Both the position numbers and the translations under genes were made by a program. The notes beneath the pieces are model-generated. The model was not told where the DNA came from. It worked only from the letters and a program-made list of their open reading frames with translations, and did no database searches. A stretch of 64,000 bases of DNA from Limnomonas spitsbergensis (taxonomy: Eukaryota; Chlorophyta; Chlorophyceae; Chlamydomonadales): positions 1,116,001-1,180,000 of the forward strand of contig JAYJMM010000116.1 in assembly GCA_037349105.1 (NCBI GenBank), in the 5' to 3' direction. Below, piece by piece: positions 411 to 61,311 of this stretch; positions within the stretch are counted from its first letter, which is position 1, and every line of letters begins with the position of its first letter.

Positions 411-549
411 ATATAAAATAGGTGCTCCAGCAGAGGGTGGGTCAGGGCAGCAGGATCTTGAAGGAGTTCAAGTTGAAAAACTGTTAAATCAACGTTTAGG
501 AGGACATCCGAAAACGTAGAGCGTCAACTTAATGTCGAATCTCGTCACA

Positions 550-620
550 GACCTGGAGCACATCATGCCCCCCACTTGGATTGGGAAGGCCATGCAAGCC
601 ACCCTCTCATCAAAATCTAC
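550..620 (-). repeat. Decayed copy of TGD1 exon 3 end plus donor
   Basis: On the minus strand this segment resembles the last 20 or so bases of TGD1 exon 3 followed by its GTGGGGGGCA donor. The real sequence translates as GMVFTIQ before the donor and the copy as CMAFPIQ. It lies about 200 bp downstream of the real exon in transcript order. It is read as a donor-side duplication within the intron, not as a used exon, because nothing after it continues the family sequence. Confidence 0.5.
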
Positions 621-779
621 ATTCCAGTGCACAGCTTTAATTGTACACAACCTGACAAAAACCATTTAACCCTGAATCACTTCACCCTCATCACACAAAC
701 CTCCCACAATATTCAAGTAATAACACAAACATACGGACATACCACATGAGTACTTGCGAAGGCACCTCCTGCCCCCCAC

Positions 780-3696
780 CTGGATGGTGAAGACCATGCC
801 CACAAAAGCGGCCGTCAGCAGCGCCACCCCCAGGGAGCTCGGCCCAACGAGCTTCAACTGATCCGCCGTGTTCTTCCAGTGGATCTTCCCTGAGCACACA
901 GTGAGCATATATCATATGTGTGAACACATGTGTGGGGTAGTGGGTTGTGTGGGGGGGGTCTATGTGAGAAAGGGGAGGGCGTGCGTGCATGAGTGTCCAG
1001 AAGGAGGACAGCTTTAAACAAAAATCACAGAGTTCCTCCAGTGGATCTTCCCTGTTCATACAGCAGGCATGTGTCACATGTGTGAGAAAGTGAGTGTGGG
1101 GGGGCAGATGGAGGACGGCATCCAAGAGGTTCCGCAGTGTGCTTCCAGTGGATCTTCCCTGTTCACACTAAGGGCATATGTGTGAGAAAGGCTACGGCCC
1201 TACCCCAAATGCAAAATTAGGGTCCCTCCTAGCCAGGGGGCGGGGGAGGGTGTGGAGGGGATGGAAGATGGCTTACAAGAGGTTCTGAAGTGTTATTCTA
1301 TTGGGTTTTCCTGTATACACAGCAGGGCACATGTCAATATGTGTGAGAAGGGGGCGGGCGGGGGAGGGTGTGGAAGGGATGGAAGATGGCTTACAAGAGG
1401 TTCTGAAGTGTTCGTTCAGCGGATCTTGCCAGCTCACGCAGCAGGGAGGATGTCAGTATGTGTGAGAAAAGGGGGGTATGTGAGTGTGTGGGCGGGTGTA
1501 TGCAAGTGTGTGGGGATGAAGGATGGCCATAAAGAGGGTCTGCATTCTATGGAGGCTCCGGAGGGATCTGAGGGATGCCTATGTCTGACCAGCTTCAGCT
1601 GACGTGCAGCGTTCTGCGAGTAGATCTTGCCTCTACTCTAGACAGCGCGTGTGTACGTAGGGGCGGGGAGGGGAGAGGGGGGAGCGGAGGAAGGTTTTCA
1701 TGAGGTCATGCAGTGCCCCTCTAGTGGATCATGCAAACTCATGAGCAGTATGCTTGAGTGGGGTGTATGTGCGTGGGCAGGGAAGGAGTGGATGGAGGAA
1801 GTTTTTCGTGAGGTTATGCAATGTTCTTCCAGAGGATAATGCATGCTCGCAACAGAGGTCTGTGACTGTGTGTGATGCAGGGGTATGCTTGTACTGGGTG
1901 CATGTGCGCCGGCGGGAAAGGGCCGGATGGAGGAAGCCAGGAAGGCGTTCACAAGTTGTACGCAGTGATTCTTCCTGCCCCCCCCCCTCGCCCGAAGGGG
2001 GGAGTAGGAAGGGGTCCCAAGACAGAGGGAAGGGGCTGGTTTTAGCCCCTGCCCCCCTATTACTTGGGACCCCTCCATAAGATTCCCCTGCAGATGTTCT
2101 TCCAGTGAGCTTTGAACACTCATATCATATCAGTGGGTGCAAATGTTTGTGGCAGGCAAGGAAGTGGATGGATGGAGTTTTTTTGAACACCGGTACCTGT
2201 ACAGCTCTGCTAGGCTTTTAAAAGAGGTTCTGGCACTTTGCACTATGCAGAAGCTCCAGGAGTAGCCGAGGGATGTCTTGAATGGTGGTAAGTGGTTATT
2301 TAGTACTGGCCACCAAAAGGGCGGGGGGCCTCCGGGTCTGGGCCATCTTCTGGGCCATCGGGGACCAAACCACAACCAGCCTCCAGGCGTTGGCCCAAGC
2401 AGCAGGCACCTCGCTGTACCAGGCGCCCACGACCGTAGGCCGTGATGTAGCTGAGCTGTAGCGGAAGCGTGCCAAAGCGAACTGTGCTGGTGGAGGCTGG
2501 ATCTTGATGATGGCCAGTTTTCCTCAACATGCAGTAGACGAGGATGCAAGGCAGCAGTGGCGGATATGATGTTCACAATTTTTTGGGGGCGGGCATCAGC
2601 GCTTTACCCTCAACCATGAACCTGAGGCGGGGCTATGAGGAGACATACTGGGGCTACAGCCCATGAGGGAGTCTACGTGGGAGCTTTTTGGGGCATGGCT
2701 ATGAAAGGATCTACACGGGGCATGGCTATGAGGGGCTGTGGAAGCCCGTCACAGCCAGGTTCCATGCTTGGAGCACGTGCAAAACATTCAAAGCATCATG
2801 TGCAATTTTGTTCGGCCCCGCGACGGCGAGCGTTTTGTCACGGGGCATTGTGTGGGTCATGACACGTGACCTGACAAAGAGCTTGGTCCCAATGCCTATT
2901 TGAGGCGGCTTCTGCTACAGTACAGCTATATCACGGCCCACGTCCGGGGAGAATTGGTGTGGCAAGCCATACTGTTTGGGCCACCGGACGGACGCTGGTC
3001 AAGGTTTTAGTCCACATTGGCCCAGTGGTGGCTGGGCCAGACAGCCTGCCTAAGTTGGCCTGACACACGCTAAAATAACGCTAGGATTGTGACACCCAAA
3101 CGCTAGGCCCCGCACAGTCTCTGCATGCATGTGATGCCACCATGGTGGGGTCTCGCCATTGGGCTCCATGCAGACCTGGCCTGATGTTGGGCTCGGCTCG
3201 CATGGTTTCGCACCTTGGAAAATACGGAGCATGACCTGGCCTCCGAGCACGAGGCACGCCACTGTGCGGAACACCCACTTGGGGGGCTTGAATCTGTCTA
3301 TGGCTTGAATGATGGCTGCAGCAGCAAAGGGGGCGTGGTTTCATGTGAGCGCCATGCGATATCCCCGCCGCCATGTTGGCTGAAGGGCAGGTGACCTGCC
3401 CCATGCAGCCATGCAGCCCCTGTCGTGTGCAAATTCGCATTCCGTTCAAATTATCACTGCGAAGCTGAGCTGGAGCTCTTGGAAAGTTCACCTTCTGGCG
3501 TCTCAATCACTGGTTTTGATTCTGACGTCTGCGGATCATTCCCGGTGTTTTCATCTGGGCTTGCCGCTGCTTGGGATATCGAAGCGCTCGGTATGAGCAA
3601 GTGTCTGCTGCGCCTTCTCGTCAGCACAGGAATTCTAGAATGACATGAAACGAAGCGCGCTGGTCGCCGCAGCGCTGGCTGCATCAAGCCATTCAT
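780..3696 (-). CDS. TGD1: TGD1/MlaE-type ABC lipid transporter permease (5' part)
   Basis: Three coding exons are visible: 3696-3492, 3315-3214 and 889-780, joining in phase (1, 1, 0). Exon 1 encodes about 68 residues rich in R and S with few acids at the start, which resembles a plastid transit peptide, followed by a linker rich in S and E. Exon 2 ends in ACLVLGGQVMLRI and exon 3 carries GKIHWKNT and LLTAAFVGMVFTIQ. These match the conserved start of the MlaE permease domain in TGD1 proteins (LGGQV, GKIHW, LLTAAFVGM, FTIQ). The TGD1 family forms the membrane part of the TGD1-2-3 importer in the chloroplast inner envelope, which moves lipid precursors from ER to plastid. The remaining two thirds of the domain must lie left of position 1. 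The start ATG at 3696 is the first in an open frame. The intron between exons 2 and 3 is filled with decayed exon-3 copies. Confidence 0.82.
1020..2120 (-). repeat. Array of decayed TGD1 exon-3 acceptor copies
   Basis: Copies of the segment that in the real exon reads CAG then GGAAGATCCACTGG recur on the minus strand. Clear copies sit near 1038 and 1145, and weaker ones near 1296, 1415, 1616, 1731, 1829, 1965 and 2102. Spacing is about 100-200 bp. The two copies nearest the real exon (876-893) keep the acceptor and the first 15 or so coding bases almost unchanged, and similarity falls with distance. All sit in the intron immediately upstream of exon 3 in transcript order. Confidence 0.65.
2321..2470 (-). 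repeat. Dispersed CAGCTACA/GGCCTACGG element, copy 1
   Basis: Minus-strand copy with the head CAGCTACATCACGGCCTACG, then a CTGCTGCTTGGGCC core and a GGTTTGGTCCCCGATGG segment near its end. It lies in the intron between TGD1 exons 2 and 3. Confidence 0.6.
2630..2745 (+). repeat. Short repeat GGGGCATGGCTATGA
   Basis: Three imperfect copies of a GGGGC(AT)GGCTATGA motif followed by AGGATCTACAC-like sequence occur here. No function is visible. Confidence 0.4.
2918..3062 (+). repeat. Dispersed CAGCTACA/GGCCTACGG element, copy 2
   Basis: Plus-strand copy beginning with CAGTACAGCTATATCACGG. It has the GGCAAGC core, a TTTGGGCC(A/G)CCGG block, and ends near CCAGTGGTGGCTGGG and CAGCCTGCCTAA. It is intronic in the TGD1-like gene. 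Confidence 0.55.
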
Positions 3697-5355: not shown

Positions 5356-8300
5356 ATGTTTGCATCTAAAGGTGATTTTTTTTCAATTTTCATTAGTTGG
5401 GAAGTGCATGAAGCATGTGTGCCGAATGAATCTGACGCTTCACGGCTCCAACGCGTTCACGCAGTTTACGTCGGAGGATTACGTGCAGACGTGACGCAGC
5501 GAGACGTTGAAGACGGTAAGATAGCATTGCTCAGTGTCACAGGAAGTTCTTCCTGTCGAAGAGTCACTTCCGAAGTTGCTGGAAGCTGAAGTAGCTGGCT
5601 GGTTGCCCAACATACATTCGCGTCTCCCCCGCCCTTGCTTTTGCCCAACAGAGTTCCTGAGGTTTGGACGAATCGACAAGGTGATGAGTACTTGACCTCG
5701 GTCCATTGCGGCTGGTAACACTGGTGTAGTATGAATGATAGAATCTTCGGGGAAATAAGAAATTCTCGGCCCTAATTAATTGTCTCATCCCATCCGATCA
5801 CATCCGCCCTGCACTGGGTGCCCTGGGTGCTGATTGAGTGCGTCGTGGTAGTAGTGCGTGTCAACTACTGCCAAGTGGTCAGCCACTCAGTCTCCTCCCC
5901 GACCTCTCCCATCCACCCGGCGGATTACCAGCAGGGCTGTGCATGCCCCGGGCATTTACCCTTCCCCTACTGCCTGATCTGTGAAAGCCTCTGAATCGCC
6001 CTTTATCGATCTCACTGGCTGGAAGTGTGCTTTGTCTGGCCGCATTCTGACGGAATACTTGTGCAACCTACAATTTGACCTGCTCCGCAGATATGGATTG
6101 CTAGAAACCCCCCAGGTGAGGCTTTGCTGGCAAGAACCAGAAATCTTCAAGATATTCTGCCCCCCCCCGGCCATGACCATTCTTACCAGTTTTCTACTGA
6201 TAGGGAAGGACATTGCTCTGAATGCTTGCAGTACCCGTACTGCTACTTTCATTTGGCGCTTTGATGCCTTTGGGGGTCCAATTTTAGGCAATTCATAATA
6301 TTCCAGTGTTTTAGGGGTTAGTTATCAAGAATATTCAATATATTCCGGTGATGTGACTTTGGGGGTTGAATATTTCCAGAATTCAGAGCAGTTATTGGCA
6401 TCAATGTGCCCCTCTGTCCCCATCTGAATAGGATGCTAAATAGAACTCCATTACATAACATTATCTGATGAGGAGACCTGAAGACAAACATCTGCCACAC
6501 AACATTCACCCGTAGGTTGAAAATATTGTGGTGATTTGGCTGTAGGGGTTCAAGCCGACCCCTAATATCAATGGTGTTACAATTGGGGGTTGTAACCCCC
6601 CAAATTAAGCACCAAAGATAAGTAGCAGTAAGGTATTCAAGCTGTATGTACCAGTAGTCAGAACAATGAGTCGCTGCGGCCTGCGGCCCACCAGCAGGTT
6701 TTGCCTTCATTGACTACGAGGACTACCGAGATGCCGAGGATGCAGTCAGGAGGCTGGACGGTGAGCTGATGGACCTTAGTTCACATGCCTCACTACCCGG
6801 CGGCTACTTTTTAATTTCTTCTTCATCTGGGCCAAGCTCCTGCAACAACCTGCAACAACCTGCAACAACCTGCTTACATGCAACAATATGCAACAACTTG
6901 CAATAATCTGCAACCTGCAACAATCTTCAACAACCTGCAACAACTTGCAACAACATGCAACAACATGCAATGCTCTGCTACAATTTGCAAGAACCTGCAA
7001 CATCCTGCAACAATCTGCATGCATCTGCAACAACCTGCACTACCTGCAACAACCTGCAACCTGCAACCGCGCACAACACTGGCTGCACAGCCGCATGCAA
7101 ACCCGTGGATGTTCCTGCCTTGTGGTCCAGCACACTCAGAGTGTTCCAGCTGACTGAAAATTGGAATCCATGCAGGACTGATCGCTGTCTACTTACAAAA
7201 TAATCAAGAGTAATGTCTCATTATAATCTTGTGGCCAGTGCCCCACTCTTTATCTACCTTACTCAATTGTACAGCTCTAGGGACAGCCTTCTCCTCCTCA
7301 GCTGGGAGGGGGCCTCGTTACTGCTGCCGCTGCTGACCGCCGCAAGGCTCCCCCCATGCACAGCAGCACCTACAAGCCAGCTGCGCTCCAGCTCACACCC
7401 TGCAGCGATGAGTCGTGTCGTCCGCCTCAGCACACCTAGTCCACTTCAGCCTGCACCTAGCAGCCATCTCGCCCCTGCACGCTCGCTGCGCTCCAGTCCA
7501 AATGCAGCAGCGATACGAGTCTTGTCGCCCCCTGCACACCTGCTGCGCTCCAGCGCTCTCCCCTGCGCGCCTGCCACGCTCCAGCCCTCGCCTCAGCACG
7601 CTTCAGTAGCACTATGAGGCTTGTCGCCCCCTGCACGTCTGCTGCGCTCCAGCCCTCCCCCTGCACGCCTGCCATGATCCAGCCTTCGCCAAAGCATGCC
7701 TCAGCAGCACATGTCGTCACTGATGCATACGCTCCAGCCCTTGCTTCGCTCTCGACACATCCACCACACTGGTAGAAGCTGGATGTCCACTCTTTACTTG
7801 TTGGGGATAGACTAATTTACCTTCTGTGCAATGACCAATGTCGTTTGACTGTGTGTATATTTTGAGAAAGCCCATACCATGCTAACCTAGCCCGGCACTC
7901 CTTACTAGCAGTAGCTGCTCTGCTCAGCACAACCACAGATATGCCCGATCAGCACTTTTCCCCTAGTTTCCATTTTTCTATTTATTTGCTTGCAATTTAT
8001 GTGCATGGTGCAGGTGCCTATGGCTGGAAAGTGGAGATCTCGCGCTCCAGGGGCCCTGGTAGTGCTGGATTCGGCCGCAGTAGGGGAGACATGGCGTAAG
8101 TTGATGAAACCCTCAACCCCTTAGAGCCTCCCCCTGGTGCTGGATTCGACCGCAATATATAGAGGAGACATGGCGCAAGTTGATGAAACCCTCAACTCCT
8201 TAAGAGCTTTCCCCTGGTGCTGGATTCGGCCGCAATAGAGGAGACATGGCGTAAGTTGATGAAAGCATGAACGCCTTGCAATACTTCCCCTGTGCTACAT

Positions 8301-9572
8301 TCACCTACAGTAGGGTACCAATGGCATAAGTTGACGAAAACATAACCCCCCTAAGCCCCCCGCGCCCCCCTTCCCCCTGGTGCTGGATTCGGCTGCAATA
8401 GAAGAGACATGACGGAATTTCACATTGATTGCTTCTAGCAGTGACCTATGCTAGGCTTTCGAGGCTATCGAGTCACCCTTTATTAGCCATCAGCTACATT
8501 GGTGGCAAGCAGTAACCCACGCTTAAACCCGTGGTGTTCACCCTTCTTGTTTATCCCACCTCTCATGCATCGCGCCCATCCTTGCCCATGGATGCAGGTG
8601 TTTCGTGTGTGGCGAGTTGGGACATCTGGCGCGCGACTGTCGAGGCGGCCCCCCTCGAAGACCCTACAGGTTAGTGCCGGTGCCCTTGATTGAGAGGCTG
8701 CTATTCTCCCTCCATGATATTCCTCCCCTTGATATCCCCCCCCTCCATGATATTCTCCTTCCATCATATTCTCTCCCCTTTTTCTTGTCGATCCTTCAGT
8801 AGACTGCTGCCGGTGGGGTGCCTTGTAGAGTGCTGGGGGCCTTGGAGCTGCCTAACCCAGATAAATGACGGATTGCTCATCATTTAAAGATATGCACTTC
8901 GATCATTCCAGGCCTTCGAGCAGTACATTGTTATTTAATCCCTTACATCATGATTTCGCACTTTGCACACCTTACCTGTACAGTATCCCCACGGAATTGA
9001 TATACTCCTGACAGGGGGGCCAGTGATACATTTCTGGCTGTCGGCCACTTTAGACAAGCCATCCCGTGAACACCAACGGCGCGATGGGACTAAACTTGGT
9101 CTGGCCTACGGCCGGCGACCCGGCAGCATGGCTGGCCAGATCTGAGGCCCTCAGCTGGAAGCCTGAATATATCTGATATGTTTGTATGATATGTAGCTGA
9201 ATCACGAAAAAATTCTCCTGTCCAACGAGGCGGCCATTCAACCACCGCTTCAAGTGCAGATACAAGTGTACTATATCCCACTACTTTGAGTACAGACTGA
9301 ACGAGTTATAAGAAGCAAATGTCTAACTAGTCTAACTCATTGCATGTATCGTATTGCCTGTTTACCCGTACAGCCCTCCCAGGGGGATGATATCCCCAGG
9401 CCCTTCAAGGCGTTTCAACCGCAGCCCTCCCAGACGCGGATACGACAGCCCGTTCAGGCGGGGGTACGACAGCCCGCCCAGACGCCGGAGCCGCAGCCCC
9501 CCACCCAGGGGAAGGGCGCGCAGCCGCAGCCTGTCCCCTTTCCTTTACCGCCGGAGCAGGAGCCTCTCATAG
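5356..9572 (+). CDS. RSZ22/SRSF7-like SR splicing factor
   Basis: Seven exons join in phase: 5356-5515, 5652-5680, 6091-6115, 6698-6760, 8014-8095, 8598-8669 and 9374-9572, giving about 209 residues. The RRM shows RNP2 (VYVGGL), the DEFLRFG-like helix, IWIARNPPG on a 25-nt micro-exon, and RNP1 (GFAFIDYED). Then come the AYGWKVEISRSRG linker, a perfect CCHC zinc knuckle (C-x2-C-x4-H-x4-C, exon 6) and an RS/RSPP-rich tail. This order is that of plant RSZ21/22 and animal SRSF7, nuclear proteins that bind exonic enhancers and recruit U1 and U2AF. Exons 2-7 are well supported. The start is not: ATG 5356 is in frame but precedes 40 atypical residues, and AAAG/GTGATT just after it could itself be a donor, so a different 5' exon is possible. 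It neighbours genes full of duplicated splice sites, which may be coincidence. Confidence 0.86.
6837..7071 (+). repeat. TGCAACAACC-type tandem repeat in SR intron 4
   Basis: About 23 imperfect units of TGCAACAACC/TGCAACAATC occur in the intron after the RNP1 exon. They create spurious open frames on both strands. Confidence 0.85.
7320..7740 (+). repeat. CTGCGCTCCAGCCCT-type degenerate repeats
   Basis: Imperfect units containing TGCACGCCTGCTGCGCTCCA and GTCGCCCCCTGCAC recur about eight times with roughly 50-75 bp spacing, in the same intron. Several open frames here are repeat by-products. Confidence 0.6.
8125..8420 (+). repeat. Four decayed copies of SR exon 5 end plus donor
   Basis: The end of exon 5 reads GTGCTGGATTCGGCCGCAGT, then GGGGAGACATGGC and the donor GTAAGTTGATGA. 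The same block recurs at about 8132, 8216, 8285 and 8376. The third copy keeps the GTAAGT donor exactly, the second has GCAAGT, and the fourth and fifth are more changed. Copies follow the real exon directly in the intron, spaced about 70-90 bp. None has an intact reading frame continuing the protein. Confidence 0.8.
9030..9200 (-). repeat. Dispersed CAGCTACA/GGCCTACGG element, copy 3 (partial)
   Basis: Minus-strand partial copy. It has a TTCAGCTACATATC head near 9190 and a GCCGGCCGTAGGCC block followed by AAGTTTAGTCCCATCG near 9070-9115. It lies in the last intron of the SR gene. Confidence 0.45.
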
Positions 9573-12084: not shown

Positions 12085-15000
12085 TTACCAAGCCCCAAGA
12101 ACCTTGGAGACAACAGCAACCAAGATAGCAGCCACCAGGACCGCAGCCATGCTTGCGTCCCGCCGGACCGCCGCCAAAATCTTTGCGTAAGGCGCAGATC
12201 CCAATTGCAGCAGCAGCGGCTGGCTGCCGTAAAGGAACGGGACGATCTTGGACAGGATCGTACCTTTGAATGAGGCAGGGCAGGCAATATTTAATTGTAT
12301 GCATTACGGTACATCATGCGATTGTTTGTGTCTGACTGAACCCGGCGAGGATGTAATGCAAATGTTAGATGGGGCATGCTGTGAGGACCCAGGGTACCAA
12401 CCTGCTGGTTCGTACTAGGGCATGCTCCTGTGCCATTGTTTGTTTGTTCCCCCCTAGCTTATTTTACCACCCACAACTCCAGGATATGTATGATTTAATA
12501 CCGTGCAACTATCCCACGCCCCCCTGCCTGAAAATTATTAAACCGTTTTCCTGACGCATTCTCCATTGTTCACTGATTTGTTCACATAGGATATTGCATG
12601 GGTATGTGAGTAATATGACAGTAGCTGCAGGATTTTGACAGGCCGGGGGACATCACCTCTTGATAAGATTCATAAGGCGGCAGTTTCTTAGTCTCAAGCT
12701 AAGCCAGCCATTTTCTGATGTCCTTTGCACTTCTGAGAGCAGCTCACCGAGAACGATATGTGACAGGAGCTGCAGAAAGTCTGGGTCGAATGGACCCTTG
12801 CGGCTGAAAAAACTGGGGATGGGCAGAAGCAGGAAGGGGGGGCGGGGAGGAGGAGGCAGAGATGAGGGGTAGGACTGGGCAGTCAGACTGATAAAATCGT
12901 TTGTCTCCGAGTGTATCAGCTACAATTCAGCTACATCAAGGCGCATGGCCGCAAGAGGCTGGTGCAGCAGGCCCTGCTGCTAGGGCCGCCGACTGTAGGC
13001 CGGTCATGGCAAAAGGGGCACAGTGCCCATAGGCGCCTCCCCGGGAGGCACTCCAAGGTGCCCTGGTGCACACTCGGGCACATACATATTGGCGTAATAG
13101 CAGACAGGCGGGGCAATAAAGCCTTCTTGACACAAGGCACATCAGACCAGCAGTGCTAGACAGCTCCCTGCTCATGCTGCAGGCTCATGCAGGTGGACAC
13201 AAGTGGAGCTGGTCCAAATCATTACTTGTGATGGAAAGAAGATCAATTGGGAGACAACGCGGCCTGCTGCTCATCGGTGTTTAACTCGACCCAACAGGCA
13301 GAGAGACATAAACAAATCAAGCCTTGGGCAGAGAGACTAACGAATCAGGCCTGGGCAAAGGCAGAGGTAGAGAGACTAACGAATCAGGCCTGGGCAAGGG
13401 CAGAGGCAAAGAGACTAACGAATCAGGCCTGGGCAAGGGCAGAGGCAAAGAGACTAACGAATCAGGCCTGGGCAAAGGCAGAGGTAGAGAGACTAACGAA
13501 TCAGGCCTGGGCAAAGGCTGAGGCAGAGAGACTAACGAATCAGTCCTGGGCAAGGGCAGAGGTAGAGAGACTAACGAATCAGGCCTGGGCAAGGGCTGAG
13601 GCAAAGAGACGAACGAATCAGTCCTGGGCAAGGGCAGAGGTAGAGAGACTAACGAATCAGGCCTGGGCAAGGGCAGAGGCAAAGAGACTAACGAATCAGG
13701 CCTGGGCAAGGGCAGAGGCAAAGAGACTAACGAATCAGGCCTGGGCAAGGGCAGAGGCAAAGAGACTAACGAATCAGGCCTGGGCAAGGGCAGAGGCAAA
13801 GAGACTAACGAATCAGGCCTGGGTAAAGGCAGAGGCAAAGAGACTAACGAATCAGGCCTGGGCAAGGGCAGAGGCAAAGAGACTAACGAATCAGGCCTGG
13901 GCAAGGGCAGAGGCAAAGAGACTAACGAATCAGGCCTGGGCAAGGGCAGAGGCAAAGAGACTAACGAATCAGGCCTGGGCAAGGGCAGAGGCAGAGAGTC
14001 TAACGAATCAGGCCTGGGCAAGGGCAGAGGCAAAGAGACTAACGAATCAGGCCTGGGTAAAGGCAGAGGCAAAGAGACTAACGAATCAGGCCTGGGCAAG
14101 GGCAGAGGCAAAGAGACTAACGAATCAGGCCTGGGCAAGGGCAGAGGCAAAGAGACTAACGAATCAGGCCTGGGCAAGGGCAGAGGCAAAGAGACTAACG
14201 AATCAGGCCTGGGCAAGGGCAGAGGCAAAGAGACTAACGAATCAGGCCTGGGCAAGGGCAGAGGCAAAGAGACTAACGAATCAGTCCTGGGCAAGGGCAG
14301 AGGCAAAGAGACTAACGAATCAGGCCTGGGTAAAGGCAGAGGCAAAGAGACTAACGAATCAGGCCTGGGCAAAGGCTGAGGCAGAGAGACTAACGAATCA
14401 GTCCTGGGCAAGGGCAGAGGCAAAGAGACTAACGAATCAGGCCTGGGTAAAGGCAGAGGCAAAGAGACTAACGAATCAGGCCTGGGCAAGGGCAGAGGCA
14501 AAGAGACTAACGAATCAGGCCTGGGCAAGGGCAGAGGCAAAGAGACTAACGAATCAGGCCTGGGCAAGGGCAGAGGCAAAGAGACTAACGAATCAGGCCT
14601 GGGTAAAGGCAGAGGCAAAGAGACTAACGAATCAGGCCTGGGCAAGGGCAGAGGCAAAGAGACTAACGAATCAGGCCTGGGCAAGGGCAGAGGCAAAGAG
14701 ACTAACGAATCAGGCCTGGGCAAGGGCAGAGGCAAAGAGACTAACGAATCAGGCCTGGGCAAGGGCAGAGGCAAAGAGACTAACGAATCAGGCCTGGGTA
14801 AAGGCAGAGGCAAAGAGACTAACGAATCAGGCCTGGGCAAGGGCAGAGGCAAAGAGACTAACGAATCAGGCCTGGGCAAGGGCAGAGGCAAAGAGACTAA
14901 CGAATCAGGCCTGGGCAAGGGCAGAGGCAAAGAGACTAACGAATCAGGCCTGGGCAAGGGCAGAGGCAAAGAGACTAACGAATCAGGCCTGGGCAAGGGC

Positions 15001-18000
15001 AGAGGCAAAGAGACTAACGAATCAGGCCTGGGTAAAGGCAGAGGCAAAGAGACTAACGAATCAGGCCTGGGCAAGGGCAGAGGCAAAGAGACTAACGAAT
15101 CAGGCCTGGGCAAGGGCTGAGGCAAAGAGACTAACGAATCAGGCCTGGGCAAGGGCAGAGGCAAAGAGACTAACGAATCAGGCCTGGGCAAGGGCAGAGG
15201 CAAAGAGACTAACGAATCAGGCATGGGCAAGGGCTGAGGCAAAGAGACTAACGAATCAGGCCTGGGTAAGGGCAGAGGCAAAGAGACTAACGAATCAGGC
15301 CTGGGCAAGGGCAGAGGCAAAGAGACTAACGAATCAGGCCTGGGCAAGGGCAGAGGCAAAGAGACTAACGAATCAGGCCTGGGCAAGGGCAGAGGCAAAG
15401 AGACTAACGAATCAGGCCTGGGTAAAGGCAGAGGCAAAGAGACTAACGAATCAGGCCTGGGCAAGGGCAGAGGCAAAGAGACTAACGAATCAGGCCTGGG
15501 CAAGGGCTGAGGCAAAGAGACTAACGAATCAGGCCTGGGCAAGGGCAGAGGCAAAGAGACTAACGAATCAGGCCTGGGCAAGGGCAGAGGCAAAGAGACT
15601 AACGAATCAGGCCTGGGCAAGGGCTGAGGCAAAGATACTAACGAATCAGGCCTGGGTAAAGGCAGAGGCAAAGAGACTAACGAATCAGGCCTGGGCAAGG
15701 GCAGAGGCAAAGAGACTAACGAATCAGGCCTGGGCAAAGGCAGAGGCAAAGAGACTAACGAATCAGGCCTGGGCAAGGGCAGAGGCAAAGAGACTAACGA
15801 ATCAGGCCTGGGCAAGGGCAGAGGCAAAGAGACTAACGAATCAGGCCTGGGCAAGGGCAGAGGCAAAGAGACTAACGAATCAGGCCTGGGTAAAGGCAGA
15901 GGCGAAGAGACTAACGAATCAGGCCTGGGCAAGGGCAGAGGCAAAGAGACTAACGAATCAGGCCTGGGCAAGGGCAGAGGCAAAGAGACTAACGAATCAG
16001 GCCTGGGCAAGGGCAGAGGCAAAGAGACTAACGAATCAGTCCTGGGCAAGGGCAGAGGCAAAGAGACTAACGAATCAGGCCTGGGCAAGGGCAGAGGCAA
16101 AGAGACTAACGAATCAGGCCTGGGCAAGGGCTGAGGCAAAGAGACTAACGAATCAGGCCTGGGCAAGGGCAGAGGCAAAGAGACTAACGAATCAGGCCTG
16201 GGCAAGGGCAGAGGCAAAGAGACTAACGAATCAGGCCTGGGCAAGGGCTGAGGCAAAGAGACTAACGAATCAGGCCTGGGTAAAGGCAGAGGCAAAGAGA
16301 CTAACGAATCAGGCCTGGGCAAGGGCAGAGGCAAAGAGACTAACGAATCAGGCATGGGTAAAGGCAGAGGCAAAGAGACTAACGAATCAGGCCTGGGCAA
16401 GGGCAGAGGCAAAGAGACTAACGAATCAGGCCTGGGCAAGGGCAGAGGCAAAGAGACTAACGAATCAGGCCTGGGCAAGGGCAGAGGCAAAGAGACTAAC
16501 GAATCAGGCCTGGGCAAGGGCAGAGGCAAAGAGACTAACGAATCAGGCCTGGGTAAAGGCAGAGGCAAAGAGACTAACGAATCAGGCCTGGGCAAGGGCA
16601 GAGGCAAAGAGACTAACGAATCAGGCCTGGGCAAGGGCAGAGGCAAAGAGACTAACGAATCAGGCCTGGGCAAGGGCAGAGGCAAAGAGACTAACGAATC
16701 AGGCCTGGGCAAGGGCAGAGGCAAAGAGACTAACGAATCAGGCCTGGGCAAGGGCAGAGGCAAAGAGACTAACGAATCAGGCCTGGGCAAGGGCAGAGGC
16801 AAAGAGACTAACGAATCAGGCCTGGGCAAGGGCAGAGGCAAAGAGACTAACGAATCAGGCCTGGGCAAGGGCAGAGGCAAAGAGACTAACGAATCAGGCC
16901 TGGGCAAGGGCAGAGGCAAAGAGACTAACGAATCAGGCCTGGGCAAGGGCAGAGGCAAAGAGACGAACGAATCAGTCCTGGGCAAGGGCAGAGGCAAAGA
17001 GACTAACGAATCAGGCCTGGGCAAGGGCAGAGGCAAAGAGACTAACGAATCAGGCCTGGGTAAAGGCAGAGGCAAAGAGACGAACGAATCAGTCCTGGGC
17101 AAGGGCAGAGGCAAAGAGACTAACGAATCAGGCCTGGGCAAAGGCAGAGGCAAAGAGACTAACGAATCAGGCCTGGGTAAAGGCAGAGGCAAAGAGACTA
17201 ACGAATCAGTCCTGGGCAAGGGCAGAGGCAAAGAGACTAACGAATCAGGCCTGGGCAAGGGCAGAGGCAAAGAGACTAACGAATCAGTCCTGGGCAAGGG
17301 CAGAGGCAAAGAGACTAACGAATCAGGCCTGGGCAAGGGCAGAGGCAGAGAGACTAACGAATCAGGCCTGGGCAAGGGCTGAGGCAAAGAGACTAACGAA
17401 TCAGGCCTGGGCAAGGGCAGAGGCAAAGAGACTAACGAATCAGGCCTGGGCAAGGGCAGAGGCAAAGAGACTAACGAATCAGGCCTGGGTAAAGGCAGAG
17501 GCAAAGAGACTAACGAATCAGGCCTGGGCAAGGGCAGAGGTAGAGAGACTAACGAATCAGGCCTGGGCAAGGGCAGAGGCAAAGAGACGAACGAATCAGT
17601 CCTGGGCAAGGGCAGAGGCAAAGAGACTAACGAATCAGGCCTGGGCAAGGGCAGAGGCAAAGAGACTAACGAATCAGGCCTGGGCAAGGGCAGAGGCAAA
17701 GAGACTAACGAATCAAGCCTGGGCAAGGGCAGAGGCAGAGAGACTAACGAATCAGGCCTGGGTAAAGGCAGAGGCAAAGAGACTAACGAATCAGTCCTGG
17801 GCAAGGGCAGAGGCAAAGAGACTAACGAATCAGGCCTGGGTAAAGGCAGAGGCAAAGAGACTAATGAATCAGGCCTGGGCAAGGGCAGTGGCAAAGAGAC
17901 GAACGAATCAGTCCTGGGCAAGGGCAGAGGTAGAGAGACTAACGAATCAGGCCTGGGCAAGGGCAGAGGCAAAGAGACTAACGAATCAGGCCTGGGTAAA

Positions 18001-21000
18001 GGCAGAGGCAAAGAGACTAACGAATCAGGCCTGGGCAAGGGCAGAGGCAAAGAGACTAACGAATCAGTCCTGGGCAAGGGCAGAGGCAAAGAGACTAACG
18101 AATCAGGCCTGGGCAAGGGCAGAGGCAAAGAGACTAACGAATCAGGCCTGGGCAAGGGCAGAGGCAAAGAGACGAACGAATCAGTCCTGGGCAAGGGCAG
18201 AGGTAGAGAGACTAACGAATCAGGCCTGGGCAAGGGCAGAGGCAAAGAGACGAACGAATCAGTCCTGGGCAAGGGCAGAGGTAGAGAGACTAACGAATCA
18301 GGCCTGGGCAAGGGCAGAGGCAAAGAGACTAACGAATCAGGCCTGGGTAAAGGCAGAGGCAAAGAGACTAACGAATCAGGCCTGGGCAAGGGCAGAGGCA
18401 AAGAGACTAACGAATCAGTCCTGGGCAAGGGCAGAGGCAAAGAGACTAACGAATCAGGCCTGGGTAAAGGCAGAGGCAAAGAGACTAACGAATCAGGCCT
18501 GGGCAAGGGCAGAGGCAAAGAGACTAACGAATCAGTCCTGGGCAAGGGCAGAGGCAAAGAGACTAACGAATCAGGCCTGGGTAAAGGCAGAGGCAAAGAG
18601 ACTAACGAATCAGGCCTGGGCAAGGGCAGAGGCAAAGAGACTAACGAATCAGGCCTGGGCAAGGGCAGAGGCAAAGAGACTAACGAATCAGGCCTGGGCA
18701 AGGGCAGAGGCAAAGAGACTAACGAATCAGGCCTGGGCAAGGGCAGAGGCAAAGAGACTAACGAATCAGGCCTGGGCAAGGGCAGAGGCAAAGAGACTAA
18801 CGAATCAGGCCTGGGCAAAGGCAGAGGTAGAGAGACTAACGAATCAGGCCTGGGCAAGGGCAGAGGCAAAGAGACTAACGAATCAGGCCTGGGCAAGGGC
18901 AGAGGCAAAGAGACTAACGAATCAGGCCTGGGCAAGGGCAGAGGCAAAGAGACTAACGAATCAGGCCTGGGCAAAGGCAGAGGCAGAGAGACTAACGAAT
19001 CAGGCCTGGGCAAGGGCAGAGGCAAAGAGACTAACGAATCAGGCCTGGGCAAGGGCAGAGGCAAAGAGACTAACGAATCAGGCCTGGGCAAGGGCAGAGG
19101 CAAAGAGACTAACGAATCAGGCCTGGGCAAAGGCAGAGGCAAAGAGACTAACGAATCAGGCCTGGGCAAGGGCAGAGGCAAAGAGACTAACGAATCAGGC
19201 CTGGGCAAGGGCAGAGGCAAAGAGACTAACGAATCAGGCCTGGGTAAAGGCAGAGGCAAAGAGACTAACGAATCAGGCCTGGGCAAAGGGCATGAGGCAA
19301 GAGAGACTAACGAATCAGGCCTGGGCAAGGGCAGAGGCAAAGAGACTAACGAATCAGGCCTGGGCAAGGGCAGAGGCAAAGAGACTAACGAATCAGGCCT
19401 GGGCAAGGGCAGAGGCAAAGAGACTAACGAATCAGGCCTGGGCAAGGGCAGAGGCAAAGAGACTAACGAATCAGGCCTGGGCAAGGGCAGAGGCAAAGAG
19501 ACTAACGAATCAGGCCTGGGCAAGGGCAGAGGCAAAGAGACGAACGAATCAGTCCTGGGCAAGGGCAGAGGCAAAGAGACTAACGAATCAGGCCTGGGCA
19601 AGGGCAGAGGCAAAGAGACTAACGAATCAGGCCTGGGTAAAGGCAGAGGCAAAGAGACGAACGAATCAGTCCTGGGCAAGGGCAGAGGCAAAGAGACTAA
19701 CGAATCAGGCCTGGGCAAAGGCAGAGGCAAAGAGACTAACGAATCAGGCCTGGGTAAAGGCAGAGGCAAAGAGACTAACGAATCAGTCCTGGGCAAGGGC
19801 AGAGGCAAAGAGACTAACGAATCAGGCCTGGGCAAGGGCAGAGGCAAAGAGACTAACGAATCAGTCCTGGGCAAGGGCAGAGGCAAAGAGACTAACGAAT
19901 CAGGCCTGGGCAAGGGCAGAGGCAGAGAGACTAACGAATCAGGCCTGGGCAAGGGCTGAGGCAAAGAGACTAACGAATCAGGCCTGGGCAAGGGCAGAGG
20001 CAAAGAGACTAACGAATCAGGCCTGGGCAAGGGCAGAGGCAAAGAGACTAACGAATCAGGCCTGGGTAAAGGCAGAGGCAAAGAGACTAACGAATCAGGC
20101 CTGGGCAAGGGCAGAGGTAGAGAGACTAACGAATCAGGCCTGGGCAAGGGCAGAGGCAAAGAGACGAACGAATCAGTCCTGGGCAAGGGCAGAGGCAAAG
20201 AGACTAACGAATCAGGCCTGGGCAAGGGCAGAGGCAAAGAGACTAACGAATCAGGCCTGGGCAAGGGCAGAGGCAAAGAGACTAACGAATCAAACCTGGG
20301 CAAGGGCTGAGGCAGAGAGACTAACGAATCAGGCCTGGGTAAAGGCAGAGGCAAAGAGACTAACGAATCAGTCCTGGGCAAGGGCAGAGGCAAAGAGACT
20401 AACGAATCAGGCCTGGGTAAAGGCAGAGGCAAAGAGACTAATGAATCAGGCCTGGGCAAGGGCAGTGGCAAAGAGACGAACGAATCAGTCCTGGGCAAGG
20501 GCAGAGGTAGAGAGACTAACGAATCAGGCCTGGGCAAGGGCAGAGGCAAAGAGACTAACGAATCAGGCCTGGGTAAAGGCAGAGGCAAAGAGACTAACGA
20601 ATCAGGCCTGGGCAAGGGCAGAGGCAAAGAGACGAACGAATCAGTCCTGGGCAAGGGCAGAGGCAAAGAGACTAACGAATCAGGCCTGGGCAAGGGCAGA
20701 GGCAAAGAGACTAACGAATCAGGCCTGGGCAAGGGCAGAGGCAAAGAGACGAACGAATCAGTCCTGGGCAAGGGCAGAGGTAGAGAGACTAACGAATCAG
20801 GCCTGGGCAAGGGCAGAGGCAAAGAGACGAACGAATCAGTCCTGGGCAAGGGCAGAGGTAGAGAGACTAACGAATCAGGCCTGGGCAAGGGCAGAGGCAA
20901 AGAGACTAACGAATCAGGCCTGGGTAAAGGCAGAGGCAAAGAGACTAACGAATCAGGCCTGGGCAAGGGCAGAGGCAAAGAGACGAACGAATCAGTCCTG

Positions 21001-42200: not shown

Positions 42201-43783
42201 GCACGCACGAGGAGCTACGGGGTGGCAGGGCCATCTTGAACAGGGGAGCGAAAGAGACGGGCCTGCCAGCACAGGGTCAGGCGAGCAGGTCTGCAGTGTG
42301 GAGCAGGGCGGGAGCACTTCCAGGGACGGGGCAGAGCCGCAGCCACAGCAGGGAGGGAGAACATCCAGGGGTGGGGCAGCGCCACAGCTACAGCAGGCAG
42401 GGAGCGCCTCCTGGGGTGGAGCAGTTTCGAAGCTGGATGACAGTGTTGACAACGGGCATGAGCGGCCTGGCGTGGCGCCACGGGAGAGCCTCCCCAGCAG
42501 CAGTGCGGGGGCAAGCGGGCTGGGACGCGATCAGGTGGACGTTTTCAGAGCGGGGCGGGACCTGTATGTTGAGGGCCTGCCTGCTCTCCGGGCCCGGCTC
42601 TCTGCTGGGAACCTGACCAGGATGGACGAGAGCTGGCGGAAGCTGGAGGAGCTGACTGGAAGCTGGGCCAGCATGGCTGCAGGTCTGCTTCGGAGCACGG
42701 CGCTGCGTGGCCTGCCTTTGAGGGAGGATGGAGTGGAATGGGACGTCAGGCATTGCATTGTCTCCCGAGGTAATGGAGCAATATTGAATGACTTCACAAA
42801 CAAAATATGCTGCATGCTGATGGAAGGATGGGGTTCGGAATTGGGGTTCTGGTACTGCATCATCTCCCGCAGTATTCGTCATGGTAAACGTTAAATTTCT
42901 AGTGGGGAAACCGAATTTCTTTCAGACGAAAATGTATACTTGTAGTATCACGGACTGTCATGAGATGCAAAAAAGTGCATGCTCATGAATGCTAGATTGC
43001 TCACTATATCGTGGCTCCAGGTTTCTGTGCACTGAACAAATGCCTGCTGCTGCTACTCCTGCTATGCTCTCAGGCCAGCTTCTCGCCACCCTGGCGAAGT
43101 TGATGCTGTTCGGCTTCAGCGACTCGGTATCATGGCAGGATGTCTACAGTGCCAGCAAGGACACCAAGCTGGCTTGCTTCCAGAGGATTGCGCAATCGTG
43201 AGTTGAAGCCGCATGCTATGCCCTTGTCGCAACATGATGAGTCAAAGCAGATCACTCAACACATTTCACTGACTGAAGAGGAGCCTAGGGCCAAAGGCTG
43301 GCGTCACCGTGTCATTGCACCCTCCCACTAGATTTGTTGAAAGATATTCCAGGCCCCCCCTCAAAGCAGGCATTATTTCTTCCTTATAAAATCCATGTGT
43401 ATTTGAAGTGCCATGTGATGTATGGCTTGTGCGGTTGCATTCCGTGATCACCCCTCTGGCTAATGGTCATACTTTTCCCCAAGCACAGCCACGGTCCTGA
43501 CTGCCGCTTTGTGGCAGCTGGAGATGCCCCCGAGGAGCTGAGAGCAGCAGATAGCATGGGCTGGGCATTCCTCAAGATAGACCCCAAGCCAACCTCTGTA
43601 GTTGGAGCCATCGCAAGTGGCCAGGTTGAACACACGGCACCCGTCGCTGCTGGTTATAGTGTGCCCTCGAGTGGTTTCAAGCAGGCAGCGGGCATGGATC
43701 TGGGTGACTGGGCAGAACGCGGATGCTCGATACATGAGTTGGATGCTGGTAGGCTTTTAAGCCTCCTTAAGCATGCCATGTAA
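39286..43783 (+). CDS. EYA: Eyes-absent (EYA) homologue, HAD-family phosphatase
   Basis: Five exons join in phase: 39286-40590, 41441-41535, 42075-42769, 43074-43197 and 43489-43783, giving 837 residues. Residues 1-430 are P, Q, S, H and Y rich with about five tandem 13-residue units of the YAPPAGQYSSAPM type. The C-terminal EYA domain begins VFVW/DLDETLIIFNSLL across the exon 1-2 junction, with the HAD nucleophile motif DLDET. Next come WADVLFDVLDNSF and FPAVEDTDP, a long G/Q/S-rich insertion of about 110 residues, RMDESWRKLEELTGSW, SRGQLLATLAKLMLFG, SASKDTKLACFQRI (motif III lysine) and AAGDAPEE (motif IV aspartate). EYA proteins are protein tyrosine phosphatases and, in animals, transcription coactivators. 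ATG 39286 is the first ATG in the open frame, though an upstream exon cannot be excluded. The intron before exon 2 contains three decayed copies of that exon. Confidence 0.9.
40720..40905 (+). repeat. Dispersed CAGCTACA/GGCCTACGG element, copy 10
   Basis: The best-preserved plus-strand copy. It has three head units (TTCAGCTACAACTCAGCTAC and CAGCTGCAT), AAGGCCTACGGCTGCGCCGA, AGCAAGCCCTGCTGCTTGGG, CCGCCGGCAGTAGGCCGG, TTAGGTTTGGTCCCCATCAG and CAGCAGGCTGTCAAA. It lies in intron 1 of EYA, sense orientation. Confidence 0.65.
41080..41400 (+). repeat. Three copies of EYA catalytic exon at exact 109-bp spacing
   Basis: Pseudo-exon starts lie at 41114, 41223 and 41332. The real exon 2 starts at 41441, so the period is 109 bp three times running. 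The copies begin after CAG and would read DHDEILLILN, DLDEILIIFN and DLDEIVLILN against the real DLDETLIIFN. All three replace the motif threonine by isoleucine and lose the sequence after the shared 45 or so bases. The stretch GACAACAGCGCCCTGCCTGC and a pyrimidine-rich tract precede each acceptor. Confidence 0.92.
41650..41935 (+). repeat. Dispersed CAGCTACA/GGCCTACGG elements, copies 11-12
   Basis: Two plus-strand copies stand in tandem. One (41650-41740) has AATTTAGCTACAATCCG, TTCTACGGCCACAGGGGGGC and GCTCTGCTGCTTAATCC. The other (41755-41935) has four head-like units, TACTACGGCTGTGGG, ATCTGCTGCGTAGGCC and GGCAGTAGGCCTGTAAAGG. They are in intron 2 of EYA. Confidence 0.55.
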
Positions 43784-44594: not shown

Positions 44595-48308
<3,714 letters not shown>

Positions 48309-52884: not shown

Positions 52885-55800
52885 GGTTGAAGCTCCTTCC
52901 ACAGCGGCTGCTGTAGCTGCTGCTGCTGTTGCTTCTGCCTTGTGAAGTTCTTACTTTCACCGCTGCTGCTGCTGCTGCTGCTGCTGCTGCCCTCCCACTG
53001 CTGTTGCTGATGCTTGTCGCTTGCATCGTTGCTTCTGCTGCTGATTCTGTTGATGTACTGCTCTAGTGCTGCCTTCCACATATAATGCTAGCTGCTGCTG
53101 CTGCTGTTCTTGCTGACGCCCTGCCTCCTTTCGAGGTTGCTGCTAATATCACAGCTGCTACTGGCCACCATTCACGTCCGCTTTTACTCTTAGAGCTGCA
53201 GCTCAACCTCCTTCTAGCTTCTGGTTCTGCAGCTGTCGTCCCGCTTTCACAGCTGGTGCTGCTGCTGCTGCCATACTGCCATGCCTCGTTTCTCAGTTGC
53301 TGCTGCTGCAAATGTGCCTCCTTTCGCAGCTGCTTCTGCTTTTCCTGCTGCTGCTCTCCCTTCTTTTTAGCCTCTGTTTCTGCTGCTGCTGTCTTCCTCT
53401 TTTCACAACTTCTGCTGCTGCCATACTGCCATGCCTACTTTCTCAGTTGCTGCTGCTGCCGTTGTGCCTCTTTTCACAACTGCTTCTGCTCATTCTACTG
53501 CTGCTGCTGTTCCTCCTTTCAGCTTATGTTTCTGCTGCAGCTGTCTTGCCTCCTTTCACGACTGCTGCCGCTGCTGCGCTGCTGCTGCTGCTGCTGCTGC
53601 TGCTTGTGCCATACTGCCATGCCTCTTTTCACAGCTGCTGCAGTTCATGCTGCTACTGTTCCTCCTTTATAGCTGATGCTTCTGCTGCAGCTGTCTCGAC
53701 TCCTTTCAAAATTGCTTCTGCTTCTACTTCTGCTGCTGTTCCTGCTGGTGCCATGCATTTTGGCATAGCTGCCGCTGATGGTTCTGCTGCTGCAATGCCT
53801 ACTTTTATCGCTGATGCTGCTGTGTATGCCAACCCTCTGTTCACTGTTGTTGCTTATGTTCTGTCTCCTTTCACCCTTGCTGCTGCTGCTGTTTCAGCTT
53901 CAGCTGTTTCTGTTTCTGCTTCTGCGTCTGCTGTTGCCTTCACACTTCTTGTTTGTGCTGCTGCTGCCGCTGGTTGTTAATGCTGCTCCTGTCGTGCCTC
54001 CTTCCACCCTTGTTGCTGTTGTTGCTGGTGCTGCTGCTTAGAAATACCGCATGGTAAAGAAGATATTGCACATACAATTTACTTGAATCCTTTCCTGACC
54101 CCTGGCTGCTGTATGCACAATGTTGCCTCACGTAGTGCCAGCTGTGGCATCATTCAGCAAGAGGAGGGGCATGTCTACCCAATGGATCCCCCTCCCTCCG
54201 TCAGACATGGCTATCTGAGGTGTGGCCGCCAGGCCCCGGAACCAGCCGCCAGTCCGGCCCCTCACAGCTCAACCAAAGCTTATCCCATCGCTTTGAGGCC
54301 GCAGGGCCCCTGCATGGACACTGGGCGTCAAATGCTGCCAGCCATGCACGCCGCGCAGCTGAACCTGTCTTCCCCGGAGAGGGCGTTTGAGGGGCGGTAC
54401 GAGGCCTGTGACGAGATGCCGTCGCCGCCGGCAAAGAGGCAGCGGATCTCTTGGCAGGACCTGGAACCGGACATGCCTGAGGAGGAATGGATGGTGAGTG
54501 ATGTACATAAAACCAGGATGACAGCATAGTATCACGGCATCAGATACGATCATAGGATCAGATACGATGTATCAGATTTGATGGTGACTGATGCGCATCA
54601 TACCAGGGATATACCATACCGTAAAACCGGGTAGACTTCGCTCACAATTAATTAATGATTGGGGTGCGCGGACCTGGATGCGCGCTAATATTAATTCAAA
54701 AATGGCCGCTGCGCGAAGTGTCAGCCAGGTGAAAAAAAATTGATCGTACCTGATGTGCGGTGTTAAATTAAATGATCTGCAAAATGTTCGCCACTGTGCC
54801 GCCGGTTCTGAACTTTGGGGGGCCTGCGTAACAAAAATGTAGATTCATTGTTTTATAGGTGCGCGGCCCCTATATGATTTTACGGTAGTAGCAGATATCA
54901 GATATCAGATTTAAAAAATATCTGATATCTGATATCTGATACCGTATCTGATATTAAAAATATCTGATATATGATATATGATACCGTAGTATCAGTCCGA
55001 TTTCGTTTTATATTGAATTCGTTTTTTGTTTGGAAACCTTCTAATTAACAAAATCACGCTTTCGTTTCAGTGGTTCGTTTTTCTGATCGGAGGCTGGAAA
55101 TTTTTACGATCACTGGTTCGTTTTTGCTCCAGAACCACTCAAAACGGCAATCTGCTGCGGCTGGAAGACGCGGCGGGGCCGCTCGCCTATTATCTCGACA
55201 TCCGGGTCAAATCAATAATCGCAGTGGCAGGAGTTGTGGCAGGAGCTGTGGCTAATGGAGCGGCTCCAGGTAGATTCACAGCCCCATCAGCGGGAGCCGG
55301 CGATGTCTGATGAGGTGCTGCCGGTGCCAGAACAGCCCGTGCCTTTGCTCTAGCAATTGATTCAGCGAAAGTGAACTGCCTTTTGCTCATAACGACAGCA
55401 TTTCAATGCGAAAGGAGCGTGATTGCGACATGAACGAAGCTTATCTTTGTGTGGCGATTTTTAGGGGTTTGGGGCTAAAATATTCGTTTTTATGGTTCGT
55501 TTTTGTCCCATGGTACACATTTTAATCGAAATCAACGGTTCGTTTTCTTGAAAAACGATCAATAAAACGAAATCGGACTGATACTACGGTATATGATATA
55601 TGATATATGATATATGATATATGATATATGATACTACCGTCAAATCAGATAGGGTCCGCGCTTTGAGGGTGAGTGATGCGCATAATACCAGGAATATACA
55701 ATGGTATCAGATATCAGATTCCAGATTTCGATCAGTACCGATCTCAAGTTTTGTGCTGAAATGTTTATGTCGATCTCTCTTCGGCCTTAGGGATGCCATG

Positions 55801-59465: not shown

Positions 59466-59777
59466 AATGTAGGTGGCAACTAGCAAAAGTGATTGGGTAC
59501 ATGACTTGCATCTGTATACACCAGCGCAGCAACAAAGTTGAGATGTATGCACGGACACCAGTGAAGCCGTGACAACGTTACGATGAGGGTGCATGCCAAA
59601 GGGTCTGAGATGTAAAAGATTCTAGACAGGCAACACTCAAACTGCATATGATATTCGGGATACCAGATGCATACGTACATCCTTTTTTAACTCTCACACA
59701 AACAAGCCGTGCAAACGTCTCCTAAAATGCCTTAACACAAACCACCAGGAAAATGGAGGAGGACTTCATGCCACAAA

Positions 59778-60000: not shown

Positions 60001-60603
60001 GAAATGCATTCCAGCATGAATGCATTCCAAAACAATGAAATGCATTCCAGCATGAACTTCAGATGCATGAGAAAGGTAATTATCAGATCACTCTGCAAAA
60101 CAGCGTGATCAGTTGATCACTAATCACACAAAAACTAACATGCTCATCGACCATCAATAATTCCTGACCTGGGCTGTGGATCAGTATTCAAATTACGAAA
60201 GGGCATAAATTGGTTGAGGACATCAGGTACTGCTGTTCACCACCGGAATGACAGCACTCGACAGTCAAAACATTTGGAACTTCAACAATGCCATCGACTC
60301 GGTTCTCATTGACTGAATGACATCAAGCGTAACATTTCTTTGTTGGCGCTCAAGACATGCAATTCAAACAAATCATATCAGTGATTTGCACCCGCCTTGA
60401 CAAAAGTGATGGTACCCGTAGGTTACTCTTAGGAATCACGATTGCCCCCCCATGCATTACTGTATCGCTATTTTGCTATCTTCCTATGGTCAAGGCAGAC
60501 AGGAAAACATCAATGTGACAGGTGCACATGGTGACATGTGCACAGCATGCCAGTGCTTGCAGAATGCGGAGTTGCCGTCAGATGAGCTTTACGCTCTTGA
60601 AAG

Positions 60604-60834
60604 CTGTTTCCCGCTGGACAGGTGGCTGCTGCCTAGCTGCTTGCCGCTGGAGAAAGGGCTGCCGCCTAGCTGCTTGCCGCTGGAGAAGTGGCTGCTGCCT
60701 AGCTGCTTGCCGCTGGAGAAAGGGCTGCCGCCTAGCTGCTTGCCGCTGGAGAAGTGGCTGCTGCCTAGCTGCTTGCCGCTGGAGAAAGGGCTGCCGCCTA
60801 GCTGCCTGCTGCTGGAGAAGGGGCTGCTGCCTAG
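60604..60834 (+). repeat. 33-bp array of acceptor-like units before a putative exon
   Basis: About seven units of GCTGC(T/C)GCCTAG, CTGCTTGCCGCTGGAGAA, G(TG/GG) alternate in two forms (66-bp super-unit). The last unit, GCTGCTGCCTAG then TCGTTTGCCGCTGGAGAA, runs into an open frame at 60835 (SFAAGEKAAS). Each unit therefore carries a TAG acceptor and a copy of the exon start. Confidence 0.7.
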
Positions 60835-61311
60835 TCGTTTGCCGCTGGAGAAAAGGCTGCCTCCCGTCGACCAATCCTGGCTTGGGAAGGAAGCAGACCC
60901 GGGCAGCGCATCAAGGCCAAGCGGGTGGACCTGGCTCCTGCGAATGAGCCTTCGGGACCCGCGCAAGTTCAGGTTAGAGTTTTGCAGTAGCAGCTTGAGG
61001 CTGCGCGACTGCGCCAGCCGCGGGCCGATAGATGATATTTGGAGTGCAAAGCCGCCACGCCGCGGCCTGCGCGGGGTCGGCGAAGAAGGCTGGCGAGCGT
61101 CCAGCGAACTAACAGAGAGACCGCAATGGGCTGGAGCCAGTTCGGATCGAGATCTTTCATACACCTGTTCTCCCGACGAGCTGGTTGGGCATGACGTGCT
61201 GTTCTGCAAACAGCGCCTGCCTCCCACAAATGCCGGCAGCCGGTGTTTGTCCTCACCGGGGATGAGTGGACCTGTTTCCGCATCGTCCTGGAATGCTATG
61301 ACCCTCAATGA
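60835..61311 (+). CDS. Putative 3' exons of an unidentified gene
   Basis: Exon A 60835-60972 (46 codons; contains SFAAGEKAASRRPILAW, RIKAKRVDLAPANEPS and ends AQVQ) has a TAG acceptor and a GTTAGA donor. Exon B 61240-61311 (24 codons; PVFVLTGDEWTCFRIVLECY then DPQ and TGA) follows a CCGGCAG acceptor and joins in phase 0. Upstream exons were not found. The family is not recognised. The alternative long frame through this region on the plus strand crosses the 33-bp array and has a biased, repeat-driven composition. The model rests on splice signals and protein-like composition only. Confidence 0.35.

Follow-up and report, generated by a model that had tools for sequence, protein, structure and literature searches.

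Tandem repeats that span an exon-intron boundary have been described in the amphioxus gene Adh3, where they were named 'mirages', and in the amphioxus globin genes BflGb6 and BflGb9, where they lie on the donor or the acceptor side; RT-PCR of these genes, as outlined in that report, suggests regular splicing (PMC3087553). The mirage units are given as 10-72 bp in Adh3 and ~150-160 bp in the globins, with AG or GT in many copies (PMC3087553, PMC3902484), and lancelet PGBD5 has been presented as a further case, with troponin C (TnC) also named (PMC3902484). Repeats at exon-intron boundaries are likewise described as able to change gene structure in human segmental duplications (PMC2812944), and intron gain has been ascribed to the tandem genomic duplication of exon pieces that contain AGGT (PMC4974935, PMC3443670). 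With this last route, as it is presented there, the arrays that we describe here from the green alga Limnomonas spitsbergensis share the local tandem duplication of splice-site sequence, but intron gain creates a new intron within an exon, whereas the algal copies sit in an existing intron. In the human interferon-induced gene 6-16 (IFI6), a minisatellite reportedly lies across an exon-intron boundary and provides multiple donor sites; its unit is said to be 12 bp long, with alternative donors in use. The IFI6 unit carries the splice donor at the exon edge, as the algal arrays do, but it differs in its short length and in the reported use of alternative donors, and the algal copies were compared from genome sequence alone.

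The likeness to the amphioxus mirages, as far as the two reports describe them, extends to minisatellite-like tandem copies that span the exon-intron boundary, to the involvement of both donor and acceptor boundaries, to a unit length and sequence that are gene-specific, and to the presence of GT or AG in many copies. Unlike the cephalochordate mirages, these arrays have a green alga as host and many of their copies are old and decayed; what we know of them comes from the assembled genome only. Mirages of the amphioxus type are further marked by a copy number that varies among haplotypes or somatically; in the alga, one pair of paralogues differs in its arrays. Among the matches listed, which were open-licence PMC papers only, none was by its title or abstract a report of such arrays in a green alga. 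The initial annotation of this DNA, which had noticed copies of exon edges in introns, knew of no described process with this pattern, but the same pattern is that of the amphioxus mirages, and it looks like ordinary tandem duplication of a kind already known from amphioxus. We consider it probable that minisatellite-like local tandem duplications arise widely in the repeat-rich introns of this genome and sometimes, by chance, span an exon-intron boundary. Slippage or unequal exchange would duplicate a short piece consisting of exon edge, splice site and intron, and the duplicated piece would then sometimes amplify. The exon-side copy would remain in use because selection preserves the protein, while the inner copies would drift neutrally and transcripts would use the outer site only. 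The outer splice site is backed by protein homology in the spliced alignments.

The window, i.e. the whole stretch of 64,000 nucleotides that was analysed, belongs to a genome of 260.2 Mb in 124 contigs, which was also the genome sampled for comparison. Five window genes were modelled: monooxygenase, enolase, EYA, SR protein and TGD1-like. In a protein search the closest relatives of the monooxygenase were those of Chlamydomonas eustigma (73% identity) and strain UWO 241 (72%), both of which are placed in the same clade as L. spitsbergensis (PMC11228838). The monooxygenase and the enolase were modelled with a custom spliced aligner, the references being C. eustigma P0001 and E. coli enolase, respectively; one monooxygenase acceptor was placed by hand at 34920, where the aligner gave 34953, and the 12 enolase exons recovered are the part covered by E. 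coli enolase. Monooxygenase exons are numbered as in the initial annotation, with one extra 5' exon that is missing from the homology model. At 38860-39066, upstream of the found exons, a transit-peptide-like open frame may be a further 5' exon outside that model. Reading frame and motif served to assign the exons of the other three genes, EYA, the SR/zinc-knuckle protein and the TGD1-like gene. EYA exon 2 begins with the DLDET catalytic motif and pieces of the protein match human EYA2 and EYA3 in PDB; a homologue search with the draft EYA protein gave three matches, all weak and partial, so the EYA model rests on the motif and the PDB match. The 51.5-kb unknown gene, whose exon was set by eye, and the 60.8-kb frame stand without a homology-based model. 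The gene features needed below are these:

780..889, minus strand: TGD1-like exon 3, continuing from exon 2 (..PPKWVFRTVACLVLGGQVMLRIFQ joined to GKIHWKNTADQLKLVG..) in the minus-strand frames
8014..8095, plus strand: SR/zinc-knuckle protein exon 5, frame through RRM and CCHC knuckle, by eye
12100..38600, minus strand: FAD monooxygenase gene, 14 exons found by spliced alignment to C. eustigma P0001 at 73% identity
13327..26296, no strand: 39-bp satellite, ~332 copies with 95% matches (TRF), in a 13.7-kb monooxygenase intron

In the edge test, the 60-bp edge of an exon was aligned to its own intron and compared with 200 dinucleotide shuffles. The five modelled genes offered 70 junctions; 11 of these have an exon-edge copy at p<1e-3, where 0.07 would be expected, and 14 reached p<0.01. 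Ten of the 11 copies reach the junction to within 3 bp, five on the donor and five on the acceptor side. TRF unit lengths run from ~41 to 118 bp, varying by gene, and the copies are 0 to 25% different from their own exon edge. The individual copies are as follows:

558..595, minus strand: donor-side copy of TGD1-like exon 3 end and intron start, 32/38, p=2e-8 (30 exon and 30 intron bases)
1032..1837, minus strand: acceptor-side copies of TGD1-like exon 3 start at 1032-1052, 1131-1159, 1588-1631 and 1822-1837, best 27/29, p=4e-9
8137..8411, plus strand: donor-side copies of the SR exon 5 edge at 8137-8174, 8217-8250 and 8380-8411, best 32/34, p=8e-12
26689..26744, minus strand: acceptor-side copy of the monooxygenase exon 13 edge (exon 26636-26542), 50/56, p=1e-12
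27103..27298, minus strand: 4 donor-side copies of the monooxygenase exon 12 edge (exon 27383-27309)
31014..33312, minus strand: 30 acceptor-side copies of the monooxygenase exon 8 edge (exon 30971-30886), 78-bp unit
34424..34456, minus strand: acceptor-side copy of the monooxygenase exon 7 edge (exon 34400-34295), 27/33, p=3e-5
34736..34788, minus strand: donor-side copy of the monooxygenase exon 6 junction (exon end 34841), 47/53, p=4.6e-8
35605..35655, minus strand: donor-side copy of the monooxygenase exon 5 junction (exon 35990-35844), 40/51, p=2.9e-4
37356..37403, minus strand: donor-side copy of the monooxygenase exon 3 edge (exon 37670-37572), 37/48, p=7e-7
41120..41382, plus strand: 3 acceptor-side copies of the EYA exon 2 edge (exon 41441-41535), best 33/42, p=4e-7
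42822..42869, plus strand: donor-side copy of the EYA exon 3 edge (exon end 42769), 35/46, p=2e-4
47085..47133, plus strand: donor-side copy of the enolase exon 9 edge (exon 46914-47037), 44/49, p=1e-12
47176-47216, plus strand: second enolase exon 9 copy, more decayed, junction included, 30/40, p=0.004
55665..55693, plus strand: copy of the intron start and ~4 exon bases at unknown-gene exon 2, 25/29, p=1.3e-6
60602..60861, plus strand: 33/66-bp coding repeat, not an exon edge, inside the open frame 60422-61591

The earlier observation of exon-edge copies is thus partly confirmed. It comprised 12 junction claims, of which seven are supported by the exon, three need the intron start, one is weak and one is wrong. 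Exon bases suffice for the acceptor copies at TGD1 exon 3, EYA exon 2 and monooxygenase exons 7, 8 and 13, and for the donor copies at monooxygenase exon 12 and SR exon 5. The donors of monooxygenase exons 5 and 6 and of TGD1 exon 3 fail on exon bases alone (p 0.37, 0.068 and 0.011, respectively) and hold once the intron start is included (2.9e-4, 4.6e-8 and 2.0e-8), because the copied part of the exon is short, amounting in each of the two monooxygenase cases to ~13 exon bases followed by intron start. At exon 2 of the unknown gene the repeat is almost wholly intronic, and the claimed donor copy is weak, with p=0.083 on the exon and 1.3e-6 only with the intron. What had been taken for the same thing in the 60.8-kb exon is an in-frame coding repeat of 33/66 bp, wholly within the open frame 60422-61591; that frame has 390 codons, and one on the other strand has 331. 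Three cases lie beyond the initial annotation, the donors of enolase exon 9, EYA exon 3 and monooxygenase exon 3, and a donor-side copy suspected by eye at monooxygenase exon 10 was not significant (p=0.067). The view that the arrays are mutually independent and recurrent, and unlike in unit and age, is borne out. It is also true of all modelled cases that the real site lies at the exon end of the array, as had been remarked, but any junction-spanning tandem duplication that preserves the protein must give that layout.

The sequence around the copies bears on how they arose. The intron flank of the copy resembles the real flank in 6 of 10 window cases, by only ~2 s.d. for TGD1. A matching flank is weak or absent at enolase exon 9, monooxygenase exons 3 and 7 and EYA exon 3, all of them single copies, and this counts against simple tandem duplication, which for these four needs later loss or decay. 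A copy that ended exactly at the exon edge would hint at an RNA-based route. Enolase exon 9 was a candidate and was dropped in view of the decayed copy at 47176-47216, which includes the junction; the copy of monooxygenase exon 3 may still end in this way. The array at monooxygenase exon 8 has its peak of self-identity at a shift of 13 units (1014 bp), with 97% over 900 bp, as stepwise amplification would leave, and 92-95% at shifts of 11, 12 and 14 units. Two variants of the acceptor flank are interspersed in it, over 31014-33041.

Outside the window, gene family was the sole criterion by which loci were picked from the same genome, and E. coli GltB and ClpB served as references. Of eight Clp loci, six were modelled (L047-L051, L053) and two left out; for GOGAT, parts of three loci were modelled (L052, L054, L055) and one weak match elsewhere was excluded. 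Two PABP loci (L027, L028), modelled on the C. eustigma protein, completed the set; they came from 20 RRM-centred stretches, of which the other 18, without a reference protein, were unused. The sample came to 11 loci with 122 introns and 242 junctions; the model of L053 includes a doubtful 9-bp exon, both sides of which are too short for the edge test. By that test, exon-edge copies stand at 11 of the 242 junctions at p<1e-3, where ~0.24 would be expected by chance, made up of 6/128, 5/90 and 0/24, the last being the junctions of the PABP loci, which are included in the totals. Since the loci were chosen by family, the pattern is therefore genome-wide, albeit sparser in the sample than in the window. 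Eight of the 11 sample copies come to within 3 bp of the edge, six of these on the donor and two on the acceptor side, all in the nine Clp and GOGAT loci. Local duplications there take up 13.6% of intron bases (6,325/46,651), and introns with such duplications have medians of 616 and 718 bp compared to 335 bp for those without, with the caveat that longer introns give duplications more room. It can be hypothesized further that junction-spanning duplication is a preferred route of intron growth in this lineage, with junctions duplicated at roughly double the rate of the remaining intron sequence and the outermost site always spliced despite dozens of decoys, though we regard this as doubtful.

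Whether junctions are preferred was judged from the placement of duplications, as the initial annotation had seen the arrays as anchored on splice junctions. To define events, each intron was taken together with as much as 80 bp of either flanking exon, and the local direct duplications within it were clustered; the expected overlap is the share of uniform placements of each event that overlap a junction, with introns >6 kb excluded. A process targeted to splice junctions, e.g. breaks at R-loops or paused transcription followed by microhomology repair, would duplicate exon edges preferentially, and half of the 22 window events (11, with 4.8 expected; P=0.003) do overlap a junction, an excess that holds at identities of at least 80% (9/15 vs 3.5) and at least 85% (3/5 vs 0.85). 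The window, however, was chosen for study on account of the feature, so its result is biased, and this choice may explain the excess. In the family-chosen sample of 11 loci, 10 of 25 events, a small number, touch a junction against 8.3 expected (P=0.29), and anchoring did not survive there. The sample gives 6/21 vs 6.7 at 80% identity or more, and its young events are without excess: 6/16 vs 5.8 at 85% or more and 2/9 vs 3.3 at 90% or more. Below 85% the sample gives 4/9 vs 2.6, a slight excess in the expected direction, because exon-derived copies stay detectable longer. Simulation with assumed rates puts this detectability advantage at 1.0 for young copies, 1.6 to 4.5 for old ones and 1.25 averaged over age; under that model, longer detectability would account for the mild excess among old events and would fall short of that in the window. 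Window and nine loci together, before PABP was added, have 21/44 vs 12.6 (P=0.004) and, at identities of at least 80%, 15/33 vs 9.6 (P=0.03), which again speaks for targeting, but with the threshold at 85% the excess is not significant (9/21 vs 6.6, P=0.16). For the 22 events of the nine loci, the outcome is borderline with exon flanks of 60 bp (10 vs 6.3, P=0.058), without excess with flanks of 120 bp (9.6 expected, P=0.52), and P=0.38 when 20 exon bases are required. Outside the chosen window there is no support for a special process anchored on junctions, and we regard targeting as improbable.

Less likely still is that selection maintains the copies for splicing regulation or quality control, with a role as decoys or alternative sites; selection for decoys had also been considered in the initial annotation. 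GT or AG is indeed retained by many copies (28 of 30 in the array at monooxygenase exon 8, for example), and one upstream EYA copy would, if used, lead into a stop codon. Outside that array, however, 24 of 32 near-edge copies from the window and the nine loci still have the dinucleotide, where 26.5 would be expected neutrally from their identity. The count rises to 27/32 by eye when TGD1 is read one base over; the start of TGD1-like exon 3 was taken as 890 in the copy and GT/AG tests, one base off. One EYA copy carries eight synonymous and five other codon changes and another four and nine, while the third, out of register, was unused; constraint on these copies was considered and rejected, as the differences common to them fit evolution of the exon instead. 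Selection would also sit poorly with the GOGAT paralogues L054 and L055, which agree in layout across the eight exons compared, with an exon identity of 91% and changes at 79 of 237 four-fold sites, and whose introns barely align. L054 has junction-touching arrays at three donors (introns 3, 8 and 9) and L055 at one (intron 5), and none is common to both among the comparable introns (intron 9 being uncovered in L055); at introns 3 and 5 the partner has a duplication, but of another part. At such divergence an old array once common to both could have decayed. The longer duplication-bearing introns, the unshared GOGAT arrays and the loss of GT/AG at close to the neutral rate fit neutral intron growth by tandem duplication.

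An assembly artefact, in which repeats were collapsed or falsely expanded, is hardly credible: long-read assemblies are generally error-prone at tandem arrays, but the copies are 0 to 25% different from the exon edge, and the read L50 of 33 kb compares with ~2.4 kb for the longest exon-edge array. The assembly was published as built from PacBio reads with that L50 and polished with Illumina reads (PMC11228838).

The preferred reading, local tandem duplication that meets junctions by chance, adds a green alga to the hosts of a little-known amphioxus oddity and provides an initial, approximate rate, a detectable copy at ~4.5% of junctions (11/242). It implies that so striking a pattern can arise from uniform tandem duplication together with the slower decay of exon-derived copies. 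The arrays would be natural tests of how the spliceosome chooses among many near-identical donors or acceptors.

The 39-bp satellite, which was absent from 37 other loci examined in the same genome, lies in the 13.7-kb monooxygenase intron that separates exon 26636-26542 from exon 12812-12748, and the last two found exons (12812-12100) lie beyond it. Several paralogue pairs lie on different contigs with their exon blocks conserved, namely L027/L028, L054/L055, L033/L034 and the Clp matches on C104 and C120; such pairs suggest that many duplicates have been retained in this genome.
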